This document shows, piece after piece, positions 4,545 to 15,851 of a stretch of DNA of 64,000 bases. Origin of the DNA: Flavobacterium daejeonense DSM 17708 (GTDB lineage: Bacteria > Bacteroidota > Bacteroidia > Flavobacteriales > Flavobacteriaceae); NCBI RefSeq assembly GCF_000425425.1, contig NZ_AUDK01000016.1, positions 1-64,000 of the forward strand, given 5' to 3'. The first letter of the stretch is position 1. Each line of letters starts with the position of its first letter. Under the pieces are notes generated by a model. That model did not search any database. It saw only the letters and a list, made by a program, of their open reading frames with translations, and was not told where the DNA came from. The translations under genes and the position numbers were made by a program.

Positions 4545-4820
4545 TTATTCGTGTTGTCTTGTCAAAGAGACTATTACAGTTAGCATTTTTTTTTTATTGT
4601 CTTCTCCAGTTTCGTTAACTTGTTCTTCTTTAATAAAAAAATCAAATTCTACTTTAAATTCTCTACAAATCTTGTATATTAATAGAAAATCTATTTTTTT
4701 AGTAGTGCTACTTTCTATGTTGCATAAAGTTGTTTGTGCTATACCAAGGCGATGTGCTAATTCTGGTTGAGACCAATTATTAGCTTCTCTTAGTTGTCTT
4801 ATTTTAACACCAATGCTCAT
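4545..4820 (-). CDS. XRE-family helix-turn-helix regulator of the peptide island
   Basis: A 91-residue protein whose first 65 residues are a Cro/C1-type DNA-binding domain: IGVKIRQLREANNWSQPELA, then HRLGIAQTTLCNIESST as the recognition helix region, then LLIYKICREFKVEFDFFI. The C-terminal 25 residues are charged and show no known domain. It is transcribed away from the peptide genes, and the divergent spacer of about 220 bases holds a 16-base palindrome that recurs before the second peptide gene. It is therefore a good candidate for their regulator; this is inference from position and symmetry only. Confidence 0.85.
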   Translation of the reverse strand: MSIGVKIRQLREANNWSQPELAHRLGIAQTTLCNIESSTTKKIDFLLIYKICREFKVEFDFFIKEEQVNETGEDNKKKMLTVIVSLTRQHE

Positions 4821-4909
4821 ACATTATTTTTTTAGCAAATTCCTATATTAAAATGAGAATTACAATACCCACTTTTAGTGATATTTACATAACTCATAAG
4901 ATTTAACAT

Positions 4910-5110
4910 AAACTCAAATTCATAAATAAAATTATTCGTTTTCGAATAGGAAACTAATTTCTGTTTATTAAACTTTGTAAGAAGAAAAATTAATCTATTA
5001 ACAAAATCATTGACTTTATGAAAAATTCCGAAATTAAAAAAATGAGTCTTATTAATATGGAAGACAGATTAACATTTGTTGAAATGGAAAACATTATGGC
5101 CGGAAGTGGA
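4910..5110. repeat. 201-base direct repeat, copy 1 (promoter region plus leader)
   Basis: Matches 5786-5986 at an offset of 876 bases, with only seven mismatches by eye. It covers the palindrome, the untranslated region and the leader-coding part of peptide gene 1, and similarity stops abruptly at the predicted leader cleavage site. The stretch 4928-5035 is identical in both copies. Confidence 0.9.
4933..4948. promoter_or_regulatory. Palindromic operator candidate, copy 1
   Basis: TATTCG TTTT CGAATA is a perfect 6-base inverted repeat with a 4-base centre, about 94 bases before the peptide 1 start and about 112 bases from the divergent regulator start. About 27 bases further down, AAACTTTG (near 4971-4978) is a one-mismatch match to the -7 box TAnnTTTG. 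Position suggests binding by the neighbouring XRE regulator. Unproven. Confidence 0.45.
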
Positions 5111-5221
5111 TCCTCAACGCTATGGGGTTGTGCATTAAGTGGTTTAGCAGCAGGCGTTGCTTCTGGCATGAATCCATTAGTTGGAGGATTAACAACTGCA
5201 GCTTGTTTCTATCTAAATTAA
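5042..5221 (+). CDS. Bacteriocin-like peptide precursor 1, double-glycine-type leader
   Basis: 59 residues. The leader is MSLINMEDRLTFVEMENIMA plus Gly21; it fits the double-glycine consensus with Leu at -12, Thr -11, Glu -8, Met -7, Ile -4, and Ala-Gly at -2/-1. Cleavage after Gly21 would free a 38-residue core, starting SGSSTLWGC, that is Gly/Ala-rich with GxxxG motifs (GLAAG, GVASG) and one cysteine near each end (one disulfide possible). This resembles class IIb-type pore-forming bacteriocins. An upstream in-frame ATG at 5018 would add eight residues, but the sister copy has a stop codon there, so I chose 5042. No peptidase-transporter gene lies nearby. Confidence 0.7.
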   Translation: MSLINMEDRLTFVEMENIMAGSGSSTLWGCALSGLAAGVASGMNPLVGGLTTAACFYLN

Positions 5222-5243
5222 TTTAAACAATTAGAAATAAATT

Positions 5244-5333
5244 ATGAATAGAGGGGCTATAACAATTATACTGCTTATTGTAATAATTGCAATAGGATAT
5301 AGATATAAAATTTATAAAGAAAAAAAAAAGTAG
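5244..5333 (+). CDS. 29-residue single-span membrane peptide, possible immunity factor
   Basis: The peptide reads MNRGAITIILLIVIIAIGYR and then a lysine-rich tail (YKIYKEKKK). One hydrophobic helix (residues 5-18) followed by a basic cytoplasmic-type tail predicts a small inner-membrane protein. It starts 23 bases after peptide gene 1 and precedes a terminator, so the two are probably co-transcribed. The equivalent position in the second module holds a 64-residue two-span protein. A role in immunity is inferred from position and topology alone; it is also small enough to be a chance frame. Confidence 0.45.
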   Translation: MNRGAITIILLIVIIAIGYRYKIYKEKKK

Positions 5334-5353
5334 TACATCTCCACGAAAATTTT

Positions 5354-5389
5354 AACCTCAAGAGCATCTGTTTTTGAGGTTGTTTTTTT
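5354..5389 (+). terminator. Terminator of peptide module 1
   Basis: AACCTCAA (5354-5361) and TTGAGGTT (5374-5381) form an 8-base stem followed directly by a T-rich run. It closes the peptide 1 and 29-residue gene unit. Confidence 0.75.
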
Positions 5390-5415
5390 ATTAATTTTTT
5401 TAAATTTATCAAATA

Positions 5416-5586
5416 ATGGGAAGATTTGGAATAACAGAAATTACACTTATAGTTTTTGCTGTTTTATTATTATTCGGAGGAAAAAAAATACCGGAATTAA
5501 TGAAAGGTCTAGGAAATGGTATTAAAGAATTTAAGAGTGCTATTAAAGATACTGATTTACATAAAGACGCGAAAAAAAAGGAGTAA
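5416..5586 (+). CDS. tatA: TatA/TatE-like twin-arginine translocase subunit
   Basis: 56 residues: [20 protein letters not shown], then [20 protein letters not shown] and a charged tail. This is the full TatA plan: short periplasmic start, one membrane helix (about 5-20), the Phe-Gly hinge (20-21), an amphipathic helix (about 24-45) and a Lys/Asp-rich tail. TatA forms the export pore for folded twin-arginine substrates. It lies between the two peptide modules and has its own downstream hairpin, with no tatB/tatC in the window. It could be the genome's housekeeping tatA flanked by the island, or an accessory copy carried by it. Confidence 0.85.
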
Positions 5587-5636
5587 ATCCTTTCAGGATA
5601 GTGTCCAAACAATATCTTACTATTTTTAATATCGTT

Positions 5637-5671
5637 GGACTATTTTATAAAATTACAATAGTCCTTTTTAT
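5637..5671 (+). terminator. Terminator after tatA-like gene
   Basis: GGACTATT (5637-5644) and AATAGTCC (5657-5664) form a perfect 8-base stem, followed by a run of T interrupted once. It lies 50 bases after the tatA-like stop codon. Confidence 0.75.
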
Positions 5672-5691
5672 TTCACTAGTTTATCATGTTT

Positions 5692-5847
5692 ATGAAAAGT
5701 ACTTTCTTCAAGTACCTATTGCTCTCTATTGCTTTAATTGGACTATCCACTATTTCAATATCTGGAAATCATTCAGAGTTAATAGAAACTGAAATTCATA
5801 AACAAAATTATTCGTTTTCGAATAGGAAACTAATTTCTGTTTATTAA
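5692..5847 (+). pseudogene. Internally deleted copy of the 6431-6772 membrane-protein gene
   Basis: This open frame of 51 residues starts MKSTFFKYLLLSIALIGLST. Its start region resembles the start of the 113-residue gene at 6431 (KSTFPKY), and 5750-5794 is identical over 45 bases to 6696-6740 near that gene's end; the middle is missing. After the shared segment the frame runs into the second regulatory repeat and ends at 5845-5847. I read it as a deletion remnant of a duplicated gene, though a functional small membrane peptide cannot be excluded. Confidence 0.6.
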
Positions 5848-5986
5848 ACTTTGTAAGAAGAAAAATTAATCTATTAACAAAATCATTGACTTTATGAAAA
5901 ATTCCGAAATTTAAAAAATGAGTCTTATTAATATGGAAGACAGATTGACATTTGTCGAAATGGAAAACATTATGGCTGGGAGTGGT
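5786..5986. repeat. 201-base direct repeat, copy 2
   Basis: Second copy of 4910-5110. Differences from copy 1: two in the outermost 18 bases, one that makes codon 7 of the longer frame a stop (near 5912-5914), and four synonymous third-position changes in the leader codons. The 108 bases from the palindrome to just before the stop change are unchanged. Confidence 0.9.
5809..5824. promoter_or_regulatory. Palindromic operator candidate, copy 2
   Basis: Identical to 4933-4948 (TATTCG TTTT CGAATA), about 94 bases before peptide gene 2. Its exact repetition suggests that both peptide genes respond to the same regulator. Confidence 0.45.
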
Positions 5987-6139
5987 TTTTGGAATGGTTG
6001 CGGTGGAGCAACTGTAGGCTTAGTATTTGCATTTGGAGGTTTGGCAACACTAACTGCGGCAAGTGGTGGGCTAGCCACAGGAATTGCTGTTGGAGGATGG
6101 CTTGCTGCTAGTTCTGCTTGGGGAGCTACTTGTAGATAA
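5918..6139 (+). CDS. Bacteriocin-like peptide precursor 2, same leader, different core
   Basis: 73 residues. The first 23 residues are identical to precursor 1 (MSLINMEDRLTFVEMENIMA then GSG). The predicted 52-residue core is unrelated in detail but alike in style: SGFWNGCGGATVGLVFAFGG at its start, GxxxG motifs (GATVG, GLATG, GIAVG), no charged residue until the final Arg, and one cysteine near each end (NGC and ATC). Only the start at 5918 is possible because a stop lies in frame just upstream. The pair suggests a two-peptide bacteriocin or two toxins sharing one exporter. Export would need a peptidase-containing ABC transporter, which is not in this window. Confidence 0.7.
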   Translation: MSLINMEDRLTFVEMENIMAGSGFWNGCGGATVGLVFAFGGLATLTAASGGLATGIAVGGWLAASSAWGATCR

Positions 6140-6165
6140 TTCAAATTAATAATTAAATATCAGTC

Positions 6166-6360
6166 ATGATAAAATTTAGTAAACCTATTTTATTTATTCT
6201 TTTTGTAGCTTCTCTTTTTTTACTAGGCATATCAATTTCAAATATCGTTATTGATGGTTTTTTAAAAGGTAAAGAATTATTTGTACAAATTGCAAATTTA
6301 ATTATTTATTCATGTGCAGCATGCACATTTTATATTCAGCTATACAAATCAAAAAAATGA
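6166..6360 (+). CDS. Two-span small membrane protein, candidate immunity protein
   Basis: 64 residues with two hydrophobic segments (about 6-24, PILFILFVASLFLLGISIS, and about 40-56, VQIANLIIYSCAACTFYI) and a basic end, LYKSKK. It begins 26 bases after the peptide 2 stop and precedes a terminator, so it is the second gene of a two-gene unit. Small multi-span proteins encoded directly after class II bacteriocins are usually immunity proteins; here that role is inferred from position. No family is recognisable by eye. Confidence 0.6.
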   Translation: MIKFSKPILFILFVASLFLLGISISNIVIDGFLKGKELFVQIANLIIYSCAACTFYIQLYKSKK

Positions 6361-6385
6361 AACCCTGTTGTAATATGTAAACTTG

Positions 6386-6415
6386 AAAACAGTAGCAAAA
6401 GCTGCTGTTTTTTAA
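6386..6415 (+). terminator. Terminator of peptide module 2
   Basis: AAAACAGTAGC and GCTGCTGTTTT form an 11-base stem (one T:G pair) with an AAAA loop, followed by further T. It closes the peptide 2 unit. Confidence 0.7.
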
Positions 6416-6430
6416 TTCTACTAATTTATT

Positions 6431-6772
6431 ATGCTTATAAAAAGTACTTTTCCCAAGTACTTGATTTACAATTCACTTTCAGAACAACTTACGCAAAAAC
6501 AAGTACGAGATTTTTTTGAGATCCAAAACAAGTGGCAATGGCTTGGATATATTTTGCTGCCAATACTTTTACTCATTAAAACAGGTCTTATAGCTTATAT
6601 TCTTTACATTGGCACTTTCTTTTTTAGTGCAATTCCAGTTACATTTAAAAAGTTATGGTCAATTGTTATAAGTGCAGAGTTTGTGTTTTTGCTTGCTATT
6701 TCAATATCTGGAAATCATTCAGAGTTAATAGAAACTGAAAATTTTTATAGTGAATATTGGAATGAAAAATAA
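6431..6772 (+). CDS. Membrane protein of unknown function, island gene
   Basis: 113 residues. A polar N-terminal part (about 1-35, including EQLTQKQVRDFFEIQNKWQW) is followed by hydrophobic segments at about 38-70 (LGYILLPILLLIKTGLIAYI) and 75-93 (WSIVISAEFVFLLAISIS), then an acidic end. I recognise no family. A shortened copy lies at 5692-5847, so the gene belongs to the duplicated module. Its position after the peptide 2 terminator suggests separate or read-through expression. It might be an accessory or immunity membrane protein. Confidence 0.6.
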   Translation: MLIKSTFPKYLIYNSLSEQLTQKQVRDFFEIQNKWQWLGYILLPILLLIKTGLIAYILYIGTFFFSAIPVTFKKLWSIVISAEFVFLLAISISGNHSELIETENFYSEYWNEK

Positions 6773-6806
6773 AAAAGTTTTGAAACACTGTTTCAAAACT
6801 TTTTTA
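6771..6806. terminator. Strong bidirectional terminator
   Basis: A perfect 15-base stem, AAAAAAGTTTTGAAA (6771-6785) with TTTCAAAACTTTTTT (6791-6805) and a 5-base loop, separates the peptide island from the convergent ompA-like gene. Confidence 0.85.
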
Positions 6807-6818
6807 TCTAATGTTTAA

Positions 6819-7760
6819 TTAATCAATCTCATTCAACATCTCGGCGATTTCATCTAATCTTGGTGTTAAGATAATTTCAATACGACGGTTTTTAGCTTTG
6901 CCTTCAGCCGTTTCATTAGTAGCAATCGGAGAGAATTCTCCTCTTCCGGCAGCGGTTAAATTCTTTTTGTTGATGGCTCTGTTTTCGCTCAAAATTCCTA
7001 CAATGGCTGTAGCTCTTTTGGTTGATAAATCCCAGTTGTCAGCAATTGGTCCGGAACCACCATAAGGGTCGTTATCCGTATGACCTTCAATCAAAACCGC
7101 AATATCCGGGTTTTCACCCAATACTTTTCCTAGTTCCACTACCGCTTTTTTCCCTTCCGAACTCACAGCCCAGCTTCCGGAATTGAAAAGTAATTTGTTT
7201 TCCATGGATACATATACTTTTCCGTTTTTTTGTTCTACGGTTAAGCCTTTGCCTTCAAATCCGTTAAGAGCTTTTGACAAAGTTTCTTTTAATTTTCGCA
7301 TGGAAGCCTCGTTAGCGGCTATTTTATCTTCCAGTTCTTTCAGGCGTTGTGCATTTTTACTTAAACGTTCTTGTTCAATAGATAAGGCTTTTTGCTTGGC
7401 TTCTAATTCGGCTAATAAATCACGATTCTTTTTCATGTTGGCCTGTAAAGCATCGTTGCTGTTTTTCTCCAAAGCATTGTAAGAATCTTCCAAACGGGCT
7501 ATTTTTTCGTTTAGTGCTTTTTGGTCAGCCGTTAGTTTGTCGCGCTCCGATTTTATTTTGCTTAATTCATTTTGCAAAGTCTCGCGGTCAGATTTTAATT
7601 TGTTTTTGGCTTTTAAAAGTGCCTCATTTTCGTCGGTTAAGCTTCTGTTTTCTTTCTTTAAATCGGTGTATTTGTTTTCTAAGTCTGTATATATTTTCTT
7701 GGAAACACAAGAAGTTGAAAGTGCCAGAGCTAACAGGCTTAAGGAGATTTTTTTGATCAT
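6819..7760 (-). CDS. OmpA-family lipoprotein with coiled coil
   Basis: 313 residues. The N-terminus MIKKISLSLLALALSTSC carries a lipobox ending at Cys18, so the protein is probably lipid-anchored. Residues about 22-160 form a long charged coiled coil (KYTDLKKENRSLTDENEALL and onward). Residues about 180-300 are an OmpA C-terminal peptidoglycan-binding domain: LLFNSGSWAVSSEGKKAVVE, then ALIEGHTDNDPYG, then STKRATAIVGIL and NRRIEIIL. It would tie the outer membrane to the cell wall. It is separated by 24 bases from the upstream exonuclease III gene on the same strand. Confidence 0.88.
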   Translation of the reverse strand: MIKKISLSLLALALSTSCVSKKIYTDLENKYTDLKKENRSLTDENEALLKAKNKLKSDRETLQNELSKIKSERDKLTADQKALNEKIARLEDSYNALEKNSNDALQANMKKNRDLLAELEAKQKALSIEQERLSKNAQRLKELEDKIAANEASMRKLKETLSKALNGFEGKGLTVEQKNGKVYVSMENKLLFNSGSWAVSSEGKKAVVELGKVLGENPDIAVLIEGHTDNDPYGGSGPIADNWDLSTKRATAIVGILSENRAINKKNLTAAGRGEFSPIATNETAEGKAKNRRIEIILTPRLDEIAEMLNEID

Positions 7761-7784
7761 TTTTAAGAGTTTAAAATGTTTATA

Positions 7785-8549
7785 TTATTCGATATCTACC
7801 AGAACGGGACAGTGATCAGAATGTTTGGCCTCGGGTAAAATAAGCGCTTTTTTGATTTTGTCTTTCAAAGGTTCGCTCACCAGACAATAATCAATACGCC
7901 AGCCTTTATTGTCAGTTCGGGCTGTTTTTACACGAACGGTCCACCAGGAATAATTACCCGGTTCTTTGTTTAAAAAGCGGAAACTGTCAATGAATCCGTT
8001 TTTTAAGAAAGCATCCAGCCAGGCACGTTCTTCGGGAAGGAATCCGGAAACTTTCGCATTTCGTATCGGATCATGAATATCGATGGCCTCGTGACAAATA
8101 TTGTAATCGCCACAAATAATTAAATTAGGGATTTCCTTTTTTAATTCGTTGATGTAATTTTGGAAATCATCCATAAACATGAATTTATGATTGAGTCTTT
8201 CGATGTTGGTACCTGAAGGCAAATACAAACTCATAACTGAAAAATCATCAAAATCGATGCGTAGATTTCGTCCTTCGTGGTCCATGTGCTCAATTCCCGT
8301 GCCATAAACTACGTTTTTAGGTTTAATTTTTGATAAAATTGCAACACCGCTATAACCTTTCTTGGTTGCCGGAAACCAATAGTGATAAGGGTAGCCTGCC
8401 ATTTCAAAATCCATTAACGGAAGCTGATCAGGAGTAGCCTTAATTTCCTGAAGACAAACGACATCGGGTTTGGCCTGTTCTAACCAATTGATAAATCCTT
8501 TTGAAATAGCTGCCCGAATTCCGTTGACATTATATGATAAAATCCTCAT
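7785..8549 (-). CDS. xth: Exodeoxyribonuclease III
   Basis: 254 residues from the ATG at 8549; the frame extends eight codons further to 8573, but MRILSYNVNGIRAA is the conserved family start. Exonuclease III is an AP endonuclease and 3' exonuclease in base-excision repair. Visible motifs: catalytic Glu in VVCLQEIKAT, the YSGVAILSK region, CGDYNICH with catalytic Asp and Asn, DSFRFLN, GWRIDYCLVS and the terminal LPEAKHSDHCPV with the catalytic Asp-His. Length is normal for the family. An ompA-like gene follows on the same strand. Confidence 0.93.
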   Translation of the reverse strand: MRILSYNVNGIRAAISKGFINWLEQAKPDVVCLQEIKATPDQLPLMDFEMAGYPYHYWFPATKKGYSGVAILSKIKPKNVVYGTGIEHMDHEGRNLRIDFDDFSVMSLYLPSGTNIERLNHKFMFMDDFQNYINELKKEIPNLIICGDYNICHEAIDIHDPIRNAKVSGFLPEERAWLDAFLKNGFIDSFRFLNKEPGNYSWWTVRVKTARTDNKGWRIDYCLVSEPLKDKIKKALILPEAKHSDHCPVLVDIE

Positions 8550-8653
8550 TTTTTTAAATTTTTTGATTCCCAAAAATACTAAAAAATAACTGGTAGCAGG
8601 TATAAAATTTTAAAATCAAAGTAGGCTCATAGTCGGATAATGGAGTTTTTTTC

Positions 8654-12516: not shown

Positions 12517-13557
12517 ATGAATTTTTCACGCTTCAGTATTTTTATTAGTATGCTTCTTTTTGGAGTGAGCATACAGGCTCAAAAATTAAAAAAAAACCAA
12601 TTTGATAATCCATTGGTGTTGCAACGGGCGGATCCGTTTGTAACCAAGGCGGCTAATGGAACTTATTATTTCATTGCGACGGCTCCTGAATACGACCGAA
12701 TTGAAATTAGAAGTTCTAAAACGATTAACGGAATAAAAACAGCACAGCCCGTGGTGATTTGGCGTAAGCACAATAAAGGGCCGATGGGAAATCATATCTG
12801 GGCACCGGAATTGCACCGAATTGACGGAAAATGGTACATTTATTTTGCCGCCGGTTCTGCCGAAGATAAATGGAGCATTCACAAATATGCCTTATCCAAT
12901 CCTTCAGAAGATCCAACCAAAGGCGAATGGAAAGAAGAAGGACAAATTGTAACCAAAGGAGATATTTTTTCCCTTGATGCGACAACTTTCGAATTGCACG
13001 GACAGCGTTATATGGTTTGGGTGGACAGAGGTTCCGGAAAAGTGGTAAATACCAGTTTGTATATTGCTAAAATGACCAGTCCTACTACACTTGATGACAA
13101 ACAAGTGGTTATTAGTCAGCCAGATTATGACTGGGAAATGCATACGTATAAAGTAAATGAGGGACCAGCGGTTTTGGTTAAAAACGGCAAAGTATTCCTG
13201 GCTTTTTCGGCCAGTGCTACCGATGCGACGTATTGTATTGGATTGCTTTGGGCTAAAGAAGGAGCGGATTTATTGGATCCAAAATCCTGGACTAAATTAG
13301 ACAAACCAGTTTTTTATACGAATGAAAAATTCAAACGTTTCGGGCCAGGACACAATAGTTTTACCGTAGCTGAAGATGGTAAAACCGATATTATGATTTA
13401 CCATGCCCGTGATTATGAAAAAATTAAAGGGGATGCCTTATCCGATCCGAATCGTCATACAAGAGCCAGAGTATTAAAATGGACTAAAGATGGTATGCCT
13501 GATTTTGGTCAGGAATATGATGACAATGAAATGGCTTTGAAGAAAAAGAAAAAATAA
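12517..13557 (+). CDS. Secreted glycoside hydrolase family 43 enzyme
   Basis: 346 residues from the ATG at 12517 (a TTG six codons upstream is less likely). Signal peptide MNFSRFSIFISMLLFGVSIQ with cleavage near QAQ. The five-bladed propeller enzyme of GH43 is indicated by QRADPFVTKAANGTYYFIAT (catalytic base Asp), WAPELHRIDGKWYIYFAAG, FSLDATTFEL (pKa-tuning Asp) and KVNEGPAVLVKNGKVFLAFS (catalytic acid Glu), then GPGHNSFT. It most likely cleaves arabinose- or xylose-containing side chains of plant polysaccharides, outside the inner membrane. There is no SusC/SusD pair beside it, so it is not in a typical utilisation locus. Confidence 0.88.
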   Translation: MNFSRFSIFISMLLFGVSIQAQKLKKNQFDNPLVLQRADPFVTKAANGTYYFIATAPEYDRIEIRSSKTINGIKTAQPVVIWRKHNKGPMGNHIWAPELHRIDGKWYIYFAAGSAEDKWSIHKYALSNPSEDPTKGEWKEEGQIVTKGDIFSLDATTFELHGQRYMVWVDRGSGKVVNTSLYIAKMTSPTTLDDKQVVISQPDYDWEMHTYKVNEGPAVLVKNGKVFLAFSASATDATYCIGLLWAKEGADLLDPKSWTKLDKPVFYTNEKFKRFGPGHNSFTVAEDGKTDIMIYHARDYEKIKGDALSDPNRHTRARVLKWTKDGMPDFGQEYDDNEMALKKKKK

Positions 13558-13656
13558 TTTTTTGTTGATTTACCATTAAGCAATTAAGTTAGTTTAAGGC
13601 TTAATTGTGTTAATTTTAAATGGTAAAAGAAAGACAGCAAAGATATGAATTGTAAC

Positions 13657-13689
13657 ACAAAGGCTTTCTGAATTTCAGAAAGCCTTTGT
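13657..13689. terminator. Strong bidirectional terminator
   Basis: A perfect 16-base stem, ACAAAGGCTTTCTGAA with TTCAGAAAGCCTTTGT around a single-base centre, is followed by a long T run on the plus strand. It ends the GH43 gene and the convergent proC gene. Confidence 0.85.
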
Positions 13690-13709
13690 TTTTTTTTTAC
13701 TAAGAACAA

Positions 13710-14489
13710 TTAAATATCTTTAATTTTCTTAACTGCGGCTTTAATTCCGCGGATTAATGACGAACTGAATCCGTGCGATTCCATTTCGCTTAATCCCGTA
13801 ATAGTACAGCCCTGAGGTGTTGTTACACGGTCAATTAACTGTTCCGGATGAATTTGTTCTTCCATCACCATTTCGGCAGCTCCTTTAACTGTTTGGGCGG
13901 AGATTGCCAAAGCTGTTTTCCAGTCAAATCCAATTTCGATTCCTGCCTGCATGGATGCTCTGATGTAACGTAAGGCAAAAGCAGTTCCGCTGGCAGCTAA
14001 AACCGTTGCAGCATCCATTAATTTCTCGTCAATAACCGGTGCAGTTCCTAATTCCTGAAAAATAGTTACTAATTTTTGTCCTTCAGCAGCGTGTTTTTCA
14101 TTAAAAGTAATACAGGTTGCTGATGCGGCATATTGTGCGGCAATATTTGGCATGATACGAATAGCCTGATGGTCTTCGCCAATTTTTTTCTGTAAAGTTT
14201 CCGTAGAAAGTCCCGTTACAGCCGAAGCGATAGTTTTATTTGAAATTACAGGTAAAATTTCAGCTAAAACGGTATCTACCTGATACGGTTTAATGGTTAA
14301 AATAATAACATCCGCTTCCTGAATATTGTGTTTGTTATCTGAAGAAACGGTAACGCCTAATTTTTCTAAATAAAGAATGTTGGCCGTATTTCTTCTGGTA
14401 ACTGTAATTTGGTGTTCGCTGGCATTTTTAGCCATTCCCAGAGCGATGGCAGCACCTAAGTTACCACCACCAATAATATGTACTTTCAT
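13710..14489 (-). CDS. proC: Pyrroline-5-carboxylate reductase
   Basis: 259 residues. Rossmann motif VHIIGGGNLGAAIALGMAKN at the N-terminus, VIILTIKPYQVDTVL, then IRIMPNIAAQ and the C-terminal signature LIDRVTTPQGCTITGLSEME. The enzyme reduces pyrroline-5-carboxylate to proline with NAD(P)H as the last step of proline synthesis. It is the last gene of a minus-strand run, starting 12 bases after mgtE ends, and is probably co-transcribed with it. Confidence 0.95.
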   Translation of the reverse strand: MKVHIIGGGNLGAAIALGMAKNASEHQITVTRRNTANILYLEKLGVTVSSDNKHNIQEADVIILTIKPYQVDTVLAEILPVISNKTIASAVTGLSTETLQKKIGEDHQAIRIMPNIAAQYAASATCITFNEKHAAEGQKLVTIFQELGTAPVIDEKLMDAATVLAASGTAFALRYIRASMQAGIEIGFDWKTALAISAQTVKGAAEMVMEEQIHPEQLIDRVTTPQGCTITGLSEMESHGFSSSLIRGIKAAVKKIKDI

Positions 14490-14501
14490 TAATAAATTAT
14501 G

Positions 14502-15851
14502 TTAAATTCCTAAAATCATTTTGGCTACTGCAAAATAAAGGATAATTCCAAAAATATCATTTGCAGTAGTTATAAAGGGTCCTGTTGCAATAGCAGGATC
14601 AATTTTGTTTTTATGAAGGAAAAGCGGAACTAATGTTCCTAAGGTAGCAGCAAATAAAATTACCACCAACATCGAAATGGAAATCGCCAGACCAACTAAA
14701 TATTGTTGGTACATAACCGAATGATAACCTAGCAAAAGCAGGGAAATAATCGTTCCCGAAATCATCGCTACCGATACCTCTTTGCTAAAATAAACACGAC
14801 TAAATTCTTTCAGCGAACCATTTGCTAATCCCTGAACTACGATTGCCGATGCCTGAACTCCAATGTTTCCGGCGGTTGCCGAAAGTAAGGGTACAAAAAT
14901 AATTAAGGTTTCGTATTGTCTGAAAGCGTCTTCGTTTCCTTTTAAAACAATCGAAGCAATCAATTCGATGACCATTCCGATAAGAAGCCAAGGCAAACGC
15001 GCTTTGGTCAATTCTAAAACGCTGTCATTAGTCTCTACGTCCTGCGTAATACCGGCAGCTAATTGGTAATCTTTCTCAGCTTCCTCTTTAATCACGTCTA
15101 CGATGTCATCGATGGTAATACGTCCTACGAGACGACCTAATTCGTCTACTACCGGAATAGCCTCTAAGTCGTATTTTTGCATGATACGGGCTACTTCCAC
15201 ATCTTTATCGTCAACTTTTACCCAGTTTAATTTTCGGATATAAACATCACTAATGTGGGTTTTTGTTGAAGTTGTTAATAAATCTTTCAGTGAAAGTCGG
15301 CCTTTCAAACGGTTTTCATCATCCACAACATAAATCGAATGGACGCGGGAAATATTTTCGGCCTGAATACGCATTTCTTTCACACAGGTCAAAACATTCC
15401 AGTTTTCGTTTACTTTTACCAACTCTTTTCCCATTAAACCCCCGGCCGTATTTTCGTCATAACGCAACAAGTCCACAATGTCCTTGGCGTGTTCCACGTC
15501 CTGAAGTTCCGAGATTACTTCGGCTTTGATGTCCTGAGAAAGTTCGGCGATAATGTCGGCCGCGTCATTGGTGTCCAACTCGTCCAGCTCTTCGGCAATT
15601 TCCTTTGGCGAAAGGCGACTCAGGATATTTTCACGCAAATCATCTTCCAGTTCCAGAAGAATTTCTGCGGTTTGTTCACTGTCTAATACTTTAAAAATAT
15701 AGGTAGCTTCATCAAAATCAAGTTCGTCCAAAACCTCGGCTATATCAGCATGGTGCATGTCATTCAGCAAGGATTCCAGTTCCTTGTCACGATTGTTTGC
15801 AATGTGCTGTTTTAGTTCGAGAATTAAGTCTTTACTGATTTTAAATTCCAT
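14502..15851 (-). CDS. mgtE: Magnesium transporter MgtE
   Basis: 449 residues. Residues about 15-120 form the acidic helical MgtE N-domain ([20 protein letters not shown]), about 130-260 hold two CBS domains ([50 protein letters not shown]), and about 280-449 are the five-helix channel ([38 protein letters not shown]). MgtE is a Mg2+-gated Mg2+ channel of the inner membrane. Its start codon lies inside the end of rsmA (11-base overlap), which indicates translational coupling. Confidence 0.95.

Follow-up and report, generated by a model that had tools for sequence, protein, structure and literature searches.

Two putative single-peptide bacteriocin cassettes stranded without an exporter in Flavobacterium daejeonense DSM 17708

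Do two bacteriocin-like peptides that are encoded side by side, behind copies of the same promoter, act together as one toxin or apart as two, and how would either leave a cell when no exporter is encoded beside them? These questions are raised by an island at positions 4545–6807 of the first 64,000 nucleotides of contig NZ_AUDK01000016.1 (forward strand; hereafter the window) from Flavobacterium daejeonense DSM 17708. The island comprises two precursor genes with identical leaders and unrelated, Gly/Ala-rich, two-cysteine cores, a divergent gene for an XRE-type regulator, and a 211-nt duplication of promoter and leader. Its G+C content is 27.2% in unit 1 and 29.2% in unit 2, compared to 39.5% and 38.1% in the flanking genes. 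An earlier note on this DNA interpreted the island as a two-peptide toxin or, alternatively, as two separate toxins. The observation behind that note is confirmed; it is real, goes beyond chance, and is mostly explained. Comparisons with related genomes suggest that the island probably encodes two separate single-peptide bacteriocins, each a disulfide-closed helical hairpin, together with their immunity genes, and that it has been stranded without an exporter, is partly decayed, and was probably acquired horizontally.

Separate cores and lost export genes

A search of same-genus genomes yielded matches in nine of 199 (own genome included) and led to three genomes (G063, G006, and G096) with intact export genes, in which related precursors stand beside a dedicated exporter that joins a peptidase to an ATP-binding cassette (ABC) transporter (PCAT). 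These loci agree with the view of the earlier note that the precursors are bacteriocin-like, carry C39-type leaders, and belong to a Flavobacterium-like host. The gene order is a divergent XRE regulator, the precursor, small membrane proteins of 55–68 residues, a membrane protein of 209–213 residues (TM5), a 173-residue thioredoxin-like protein, and the exporter, which is preceded in two of the three by a 280-residue DUF6625 protein. The families recognized in the G006 set are AhpC-TSA/ResA-like, DUF6625, and C39 plus ABC domains; TM5 matched no Pfam or NCBIfam family.

When the genome of F. daejeonense was queried with TM5, the only match was in the window at 6461–6706 (E = 7.3e-18, 44%). The exporter query gave 41 matches, almost exclusively to other ABC proteins; one of these matches, at window positions 6695–6769, corresponds to exporter residues 693–717 of 719 (E = 9.4e-4, 60%). 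Together, these matches identify a 113-residue open reading frame (ORF) as the N-terminal half of TM5, shortened near its start and fused to the very end of the exporter, and therefore indicate that the export genes were deleted; a description of this ORF as an ordinary membrane protein is rejected. A further scar after unit 1 joins the start of TM5 to the same exporter tail, and the two tails share 45 identical nt. The earlier note had rightly reported that no exporter lies in the window, and the cause is deletion, with about the last 25 codons left; there is likewise no thioredoxin gene between the TM5 and exporter remnants. The junctions of the two scars fall almost at one point of the exporter, which is compatible with a single ancestral deletion and equally with two deletions at a brief stretch of common sequence, for instance CTATT. 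Four of the 18 TM5 matches listed have this motif at the TM5 junction site, and one of seven exporter tails contains it. No plasmid or phage records similar to the island were found.

The two cores are also found apart from each other. Among the loci opened, those of G733, G096, and G006 have core 2 only, and those of G004 and G708 have core 1 only. This argues against the two-peptide toxin that the earlier note had put forward and favors its alternative of two separate toxins.

A profile of TM5 matched 31 of 398 genomes from the genus and 24 of 395 from the phylum (own genome counted in both). Within 1.5-kb flanks of 30 genus loci, thioredoxin was detected at 26, PCAT at 22, and XRE at 18, and these counts are lower bounds given the short flanks. 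The 30 loci comprise L061–L089 (29 of the 32 TM5 places outside the window) and L112 from the phylum search; at L073, no TM5 ORF passed the ATG filter. Of 20 genomes from outside the genus with a TM5 match, 12 loci were opened, and eight had thioredoxin and PCAT beside TM5. Two others (L142 and L147) encode an ABC-type protein and XRE without thioredoxin, and in two (L145 and L149) neither thioredoxin nor PCAT was seen. For the most part, the island can be explained as a decayed representative of a bacteriocin machinery that is widespread in the Bacteroidota, here with two toxin-immunity cassettes.

Two side observations were made at such loci. Gly-rich, two-Cys peptides of 55 residues with an Ala-Gly leader end are encoded beside XRE- and TM5-like genes in L142 (6611–6778) and L147 (6175–6342). 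At an aspartokinase site in G710 (L156, 3475–4652), XRE stands with a TM5 gene interrupted by a stop codon and with no thioredoxin or PCAT found beside it, representing a second decayed example.

The two cassettes in related genomes

Clear homologs of core 1 are encoded in full operons of G004 and G708 (z of 22 and 18, respectively, in shuffle tests), where the core is followed by a 28- or 29-residue protein with one transmembrane (TM) segment, a TatA-like protein, TM5, thioredoxin, and PCAT; unit 1 of the window is arranged likewise. G004 has a counterpart of the 29-residue protein at the equivalent place (identity at 23 of 29 residues), and a second small TM segment shares one open frame with TatA in that genome. 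A third core-1 operon, in G678, carries other precursors too and has a frameshift that splits the core-1 precursor from its leader; despite this, its TatA and small proteins are still open. Matches to core 1 and to TatA coincide in the same three of the 30 genus loci, and in the core-1 operons (L075, L076, and L079) the TatA-like protein lies between the small TM protein and TM5.

The TatA-like protein of the window belongs to the TatA family by both profiles (Pfam TatA_B_E, 59 bits against a cut-off of 21; NCBIfam tatAE, 57 bits against 53.9), and its best match among solved TatA chains has an E of 9.5e-13. It is one of three TatA/B/E-family genes in the genome. Over the first 44 residues, it is identical at 33 to the genome's own TatA on contig C3, the single housekeeping sequence compared, and at 33 to 35 to three other cassette TatAs. 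The cassette proteins share TEI and GNG, which are PEI and GSG in the C3 protein, and the window copy further differs from TatA/TatE in its location within a bacteriocin cassette. Its linkage to the cassette and its altered residues mark it as a candidate immunity protein or target mimic for core 1. Among the papers listed for Tat or TatA together with bacteriocins, no title or abstract opening described such a link or Tat as a bacteriocin target.

Core 2 was identified by profile in two of 397 family genomes (own genome and G280) and in nine of 398 genus genomes (own genome, G006, G093, G096, G109, G112, G136, G710, and G733). Two named records, F. tistrianum GB 56.1 and Flavobacterium sp. 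LC2016-23, also contain it and may be the same species as some of the other profile-matched genomes. An initial tblastn scan of genome contigs with precursor 2 had detected no relative. In all 11 other loci, a homolog of the 64-residue membrane protein of unit 2 lies directly downstream of core 2. Six of these homologs were tested against the window protein (shuffle z of 5.0 to 22), and the leader-type ones were weakest. The window core itself gave z of 8.3 to 14.5 against five lipoprotein cores and of 9.3 and 10.7 against two leader-type cores; core 1 gave no match to the same seven core-2 relatives (z of −1.1 to 1.8).

These relatives present core 2 in two forms. In G096, G733, and G006, it follows a C39-type leader beside a PCAT operon, with leader and core in different frames in G006. 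In the other eight of the eleven, it occupies the C-terminal part of a predicted lipoprotein of ~230–300 residues. N-terminal lipoboxes were recognized in L045, L047, L049, L060, L091, and L092, and in L097 one was read by eye downstream of a GTG start. In G136, whose gene is broken close to its beginning, none was seen, and the lipoprotein gene of G112 (L047) is truncated by a stop codon. No known family was found for the lipoproteins (best PDB sequence match, E of 0.78), and AlphaFold2 gave no informative model of the lipoprotein form (mean predicted local distance difference test [pLDDT] of 32.8). No description of a core shared between leader peptides and lipoproteins was found among the literature listings and passages covered.

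In the window, the regulator and core are of the lipoprotein type and the leader and scars of the operon type. When two relatives were tested against the window XRE by shuffling, that of the G710 lipoprotein-type locus (L097), likewise divergent, was closer (score of 177 against a shuffle mean of 29, z of 28) than the operon-type XRE of G006 (z of 11.7). An ATTCG...CGAAT pair was read by eye in the XRE-divergent region of the G710 lipoprotein locus. As a separate observation, L155 of G280 encodes tandem lipoproteins (5282–5974 and 6973–7686) whose first 24 residues are identical and whose C-terminal, Cys-containing cores differ, each followed by a different membrane protein (68 and 164 residues). 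This is a lipoprotein counterpart of the same-leader, different-core layout of the window.

Anatomy of the island and structure of its peptides

Most of the anatomy given in the earlier note was borne out (Table 1). The first 23 residues of the two precursors are identical (MSLINMEDRLTFVEMENIMAGSG) and the cores are unrelated (local score of 34 against a shuffle mean of 32.1, with 715 of 2,000 shuffles equally high). One Cys lies near either end of both cores, a small membrane ORF follows each precursor, the XRE gene diverges from the pair, and the same palindrome, ATTCGTTTTCGAAT, is present in both promoters. The length of 73 residues given for the second peptide stands; that of 59 for the first is rejected as the full product, given an in-frame ATG eight codons upstream that yields 67 residues and similar leader extensions in relatives. 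The corresponding extension of copy 2 is cut by a stop codon. For the terminators that the note placed in each unit, a scan marked three places, one following the first pair, one at the island end, and one (6312–6328) that falls inside the 64-residue ORF; a hairpin at ~6386–6413, 3′ of the 64-residue ORF, was read by eye only. GxxxG motifs, presented in the note as a feature, do not exceed chance given the composition (two against 1.03 expected, P = 0.27, and four against 2.81, P = 0.29; 5,000 shuffles per core). The TatA-like gene and the TM5/exporter remnants had gone unmentioned.

Table 1. Features of the island, in window coordinates
Feature	Position	Strand	Remarks
XRE/Cro-type regulator, 91 aa	4545–4820	−	Divergent from unit 1; Pfam HTH_3, E 4.8e-10
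Direct repeat copy 1, promoter and leader	4899–5109	+	95% over 211 nt
Palindrome ATTCGTTTTCGAAT in promoter 1, probable operator	4934–4947	.	Exact-copy search of the assembly
Precursor 1, 67 aa (leader 5018–5104, core 1 5105–5218)	5018–5221	+	Core Cys9 and Cys34
29-aa single-TM protein	5244–5333	+	Candidate core-1 immunity or accessory protein; hydropathy shows a single TM segment
Intrinsic terminator-like hairpin	5353–5382	+	Terminator scan
TatA-like protein, 56 aa, of the core-1 cassette	5416–5586	+	Pfam TatA_B_E, E 2.6e-16
Scar 1, first ~20 TM5 residues joined to exporter tail ISISGNHSELIETE	5686–5794	+	
Direct repeat copy 2, promoter and leader	5775–5985	+	
Palindrome ATTCGTTTTCGAAT in promoter 2	5810–5823	.	
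N-terminal leader extension of copy 2, cut by one TAA stop codon	5894–5914	+	Stop at 5912–5914
Precursor 2, 73 aa (leader 5918–5980, core 2 5981–6136)	5918–6139	+	Core Cys7 and Cys51
64-aa two-TM protein, likely core-2 immunity protein	6166–6360	+	Two TM segments by hydropathy
113-aa fusion ORF, shortened TM5 N-terminal half and ~last 25 PCAT exporter residues	6431–6772	+	
Terminator-like hairpin at island end	6769–6807	+	Terminator scan

The direct repeat carries promoter, palindrome, and leader, and the two exact copies of the palindrome are the only ones in the 4.24-Mb assembly (21 further copies have one mismatch). The shared 23 leader codons differ between copies by five synonymous and no non-synonymous changes, and the 121 nt upstream of the leaders differ at two positions, one of which creates the copy-2 stop. 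The leader ends in LTFVEMENIMAG, with Ala-Gly where class IIb has Gly-Gly; the consensus of C39-type leaders is LSxxELxxIxGG, which this end fits except for Ala at −2. The same MAG leader adjoins PCAT operons in G063 and G733.

Candidate precursors recognized by leader and composition (n = 30, including one doubtful match, L089) have exactly two Cys in 26 cases, and their first and last Cys lie near the ends in 23. Turn-type residues (Pro, Asn, or Gly-Gly) are located close to the midpoint between the cysteines, with a mean relative distance of 0.33 compared to 0.48 in shuffled sequences (none of 2,000 as low). The same was observed after thinning to 21 cores (0.34 and 0.48, respectively; one of 2,000) and for proline alone (0.23 compared to 0.49; one of 2,000, or three of 2,000 after thinning). 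This test covered 24 of the 26 two-Cys cores (L064, a near-duplicate of L063, and L089, a spurious match, were excluded) and the two window cores. Five similar cores were removed in thinning, and some linkers preceding the first Cys were trimmed, which left the measured stretch unaffected.

Both window cores have two Cys near their ends, a Gly/Ala-rich composition, and a central turn, as in gallocin-like peptides. AlphaFold2 modeled core 2 alone as two helices (residues 3–28 and 30–51) whose turn, at residue 29, coincides with the midpoint between the cysteines; the scores (mean pLDDT of 74.9; predicted template modeling score [pTM] of 0.43) give this hairpin moderate confidence, and the model had no fold match in the PDB. 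Profile searches, which the earlier note had suggested for the cores, returned no Pfam or NCBIfam family for either peptide up to an E of 1. The NCBIfam class IIb model TIGR03949 matched neither window peptide and gave matches below its cut-off for the precursors of two relatives (L080, E of 0.012; L138, E of 0.0037).

Several characterized systems resemble parts of this locus. Regions encoding bacteroidetocins, a proposed class IIf, contain a five-TM protein, a small Cys-containing peptide with a double-glycine (GG) leader, a thiol oxidoreductase, and a peptidase-ABC exporter (Coyne 2019, PMC6671954). Bacteroidetocins A and B have 42-residue mature peptides with four Cys, their further relatives have at least two Cys, and that study found no immunity protein (PMC6671954). 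By description, the intact Flavobacterium relatives and eight of the 12 other Bacteroidota loci have the same gene set. In contrast, most Flavobacterium cores have a Gly/Ala-rich composition, a terminal Cys at either end, and a small membrane protein encoded next to them, and the machinery of the window has been deleted, with only fused TM5 and PCAT ends remaining of the membrane protein, thiol oxidoreductase, and PCAT. For gallocin A, the disulfide and a requirement for a thioredoxin-like protein have been shown and a hairpin immunity peptide has been modeled; its subgroup of class IIb includes brochocin C, thermophilin 13, and ABP-118 (PMC10100652). The likeness lies in two Cys near the ends, a predicted alpha-helical hairpin (modeled here for core 2), a leader of GG type (with Ala-Gly for Gly-Gly in the window), a thioredoxin-like protein, and a small hairpin immunity peptide. 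However, gallocin A is a two-peptide bacteriocin of a streptococcus, whereas the window peptides match no class IIb model and their cores occur separately in other genomes.

Two Gram-negative systems were likened by description rather than by sequence. Cdz of Caulobacter (PMC5380434) shares glycine-zipper proteins, type I export, and a small inner-membrane immunity protein, but is a two-protein, cell-surface, contact-dependent system with RTX-like N-terminal signals. BcpT/BcpI of the Bacteroidales (PMC9308784) recalls the lipoprotein form of core 2 in that a predicted surface lipoprotein toxin is followed just downstream by a 57-residue immunity protein; BcpT, however, has 499 residues, and BcpI has a lipoprotein signal.

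The earlier note had also proposed a genome search for a peptidase-ABC transporter. A search for C39 domains found five places, none of them in the window. Two are full-length exporter frames, C3:151996–154116, which adjoins a gene resembling a radical-SAM enzyme (label by eye), and C33:17857–20055. Two more are in 60-residue frames on C2, and one is in a C39-VKOR-thioredoxin protein on C2. A second peptide cluster, separate from the window island, was observed at C2:299500–318500 (L026), with five leader-bearing precursors at locus positions 4608, 6206, 9274, 10954, and 13144; ahead of every one of them, a box whose core is AAGTGCAC[GA]TGA was read by eye. At 13461–15038, this cluster also encodes a protein in which C39-like, VKOR, and thioredoxin domains are combined, and apparent pieces of transposase genes lie at 7329–8648 (label by eye).

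Competing readings and their meaning

We propose that, in this type of system, a C39-type exporter would remove the leader of each precursor by cutting after Met-Ala-Gly, and that in intact relatives a TlpA-like protein would close the disulfide between the terminal cysteines. The closed Gly/Ala-rich helical hairpin would then insert into the inner membrane of competitors, each core acting as a separate single-peptide bacteriocin. The producer would be protected by the cognate membrane protein, namely the 64-residue two-TM protein for core 2 and the 29-residue and/or TatA-like protein for core 1, and the XRE protein may repress both units via the shared palindrome. Membrane insertion, killing, and immunity are thus far inferred from sequence. 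In the window, open reading frames remain for the regulator, the leader of 23 residues, the two cores, and the candidate immunity proteins. Without its exporter, the island could give immunity to related producers, or its peptides might be exported via one of the other full-length C39 exporters (on C3 or C33).

A working class IIb bacteriocin with peptides 1 and 2 as partners, exported in trans, would accord with the tandem copies behind the same leader and promoter, with the C39 exporters elsewhere in the genome, and with the two-Cys helical-hairpin peptides known in the gallocin A subgroup (PMC10100652). Against such a partnership stand the separate occurrence of the cores in five relatives among the loci opened (core 2 only in G733, G096, and G006; core 1 only in G004 and G708), a neighbor gene proper to each core, the lack of a match to the NCBIfam class IIb model, and GxxxG counts not above chance. 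We therefore reject the two-peptide class IIb assignment and consider its operation in trans improbable. Chance ORFs or pseudogene debris without a product might be suspected from the AT-rich DNA, the truncated duplicates, and the stop in the copy-2 leader extension. This is very improbable given the homologous cores in other species (z of 8.3 to 14.5 for seven core-2 relatives and 18 and 22 for two of core 1) and ratios of non-synonymous to synonymous change (pN/pS) that stay under 0.5 in core 1, TatA, and the 29-residue protein. These ratios, from small samples, range from 0.17 to 0.46 against relatives (core 1, 0.18 and 0.26 against the G004 and G708 homologs; 29-residue protein, 0.17), with the highest against the broken G678 core. 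Together with the synonymous-only changes in the leader, they argue that these parts were long functional and are silent on their state after loss of the exporter. About as improbable is a role as pheromone-like signals of a regulatory circuit. C39 leaders are also used by pheromones and a regulator adjoins the precursors, but the conserved small membrane protein downstream and the long, Gly/Ala-rich, two-Cys cores better fit toxin and immunity. A response-regulator-like gene lies upstream in G017 and G625 (L080 and L088; label by eye), and no search for a sensor kinase or receptor was made.

Two further readings were considered. One, which is an outcome within the reading of two separate bacteriocins, is an immunity-only island in which the 64-residue, 29-residue, and TatA-like proteins protect from related producers and the precursors are dead passengers. 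The deleted export genes, the candidate immunity genes that are all open, and the G678 operon, where the core-1 precursor is frameshifted and TatA and the small proteins are open, point in this direction; the window precursors, however, are both still open, the leader copies differ only synonymously, and promoter and palindrome are conserved (two differences in 121 nt). We regard this outcome as possible, if somewhat doubtful. The other, which we think unlikely, is that the core-1 bacteriocin attacks the twin-arginine (Tat) translocase through TatA, with the cassette TatA as a resistant copy or decoy, and that core 2 and its 64-residue partner form a mobile pair with two unrelated delivery routes, the window being a recombinant of leader and lipoprotein types.

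Several points weigh against two separate, disulfide-closed hairpin bacteriocins with cognate immunity genes as the explanation of the island. The core-2 hairpin comes from a model of one sequence and has moderate confidence. The three operons with TatA also have similar TM5 proteins, and the TatA link is therefore not separated from shared descent, although this alternative is weakened by unit 2 of the window, which has a TM5 remnant and no TatA. Toxin genes are interrupted in four relatives (precursors in G678 and G006; lipoproteins in G112 and G136), which indicates that this type of locus decays often and that the window copy may be silent. Copy 2 has lost the first eight leader residues by one of only two changes in 121 nt. 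Lastly, the synonymous-only leader changes may predate exporter loss if the cassettes came by recombination.

If the reading of two separate single-peptide bacteriocins is right, Flavobacterium would possess a bacteriocin system with testable toxin-immunity pairs, and the island would be a clear case of a toxin cassette that has outlived its exporter. Core 2, if correctly read, would be one toxin core that occurs in two settings, a leader peptide and a lipoprotein. If true, the link to TatA would suggest that Tat protein export is a bacteriocin target.

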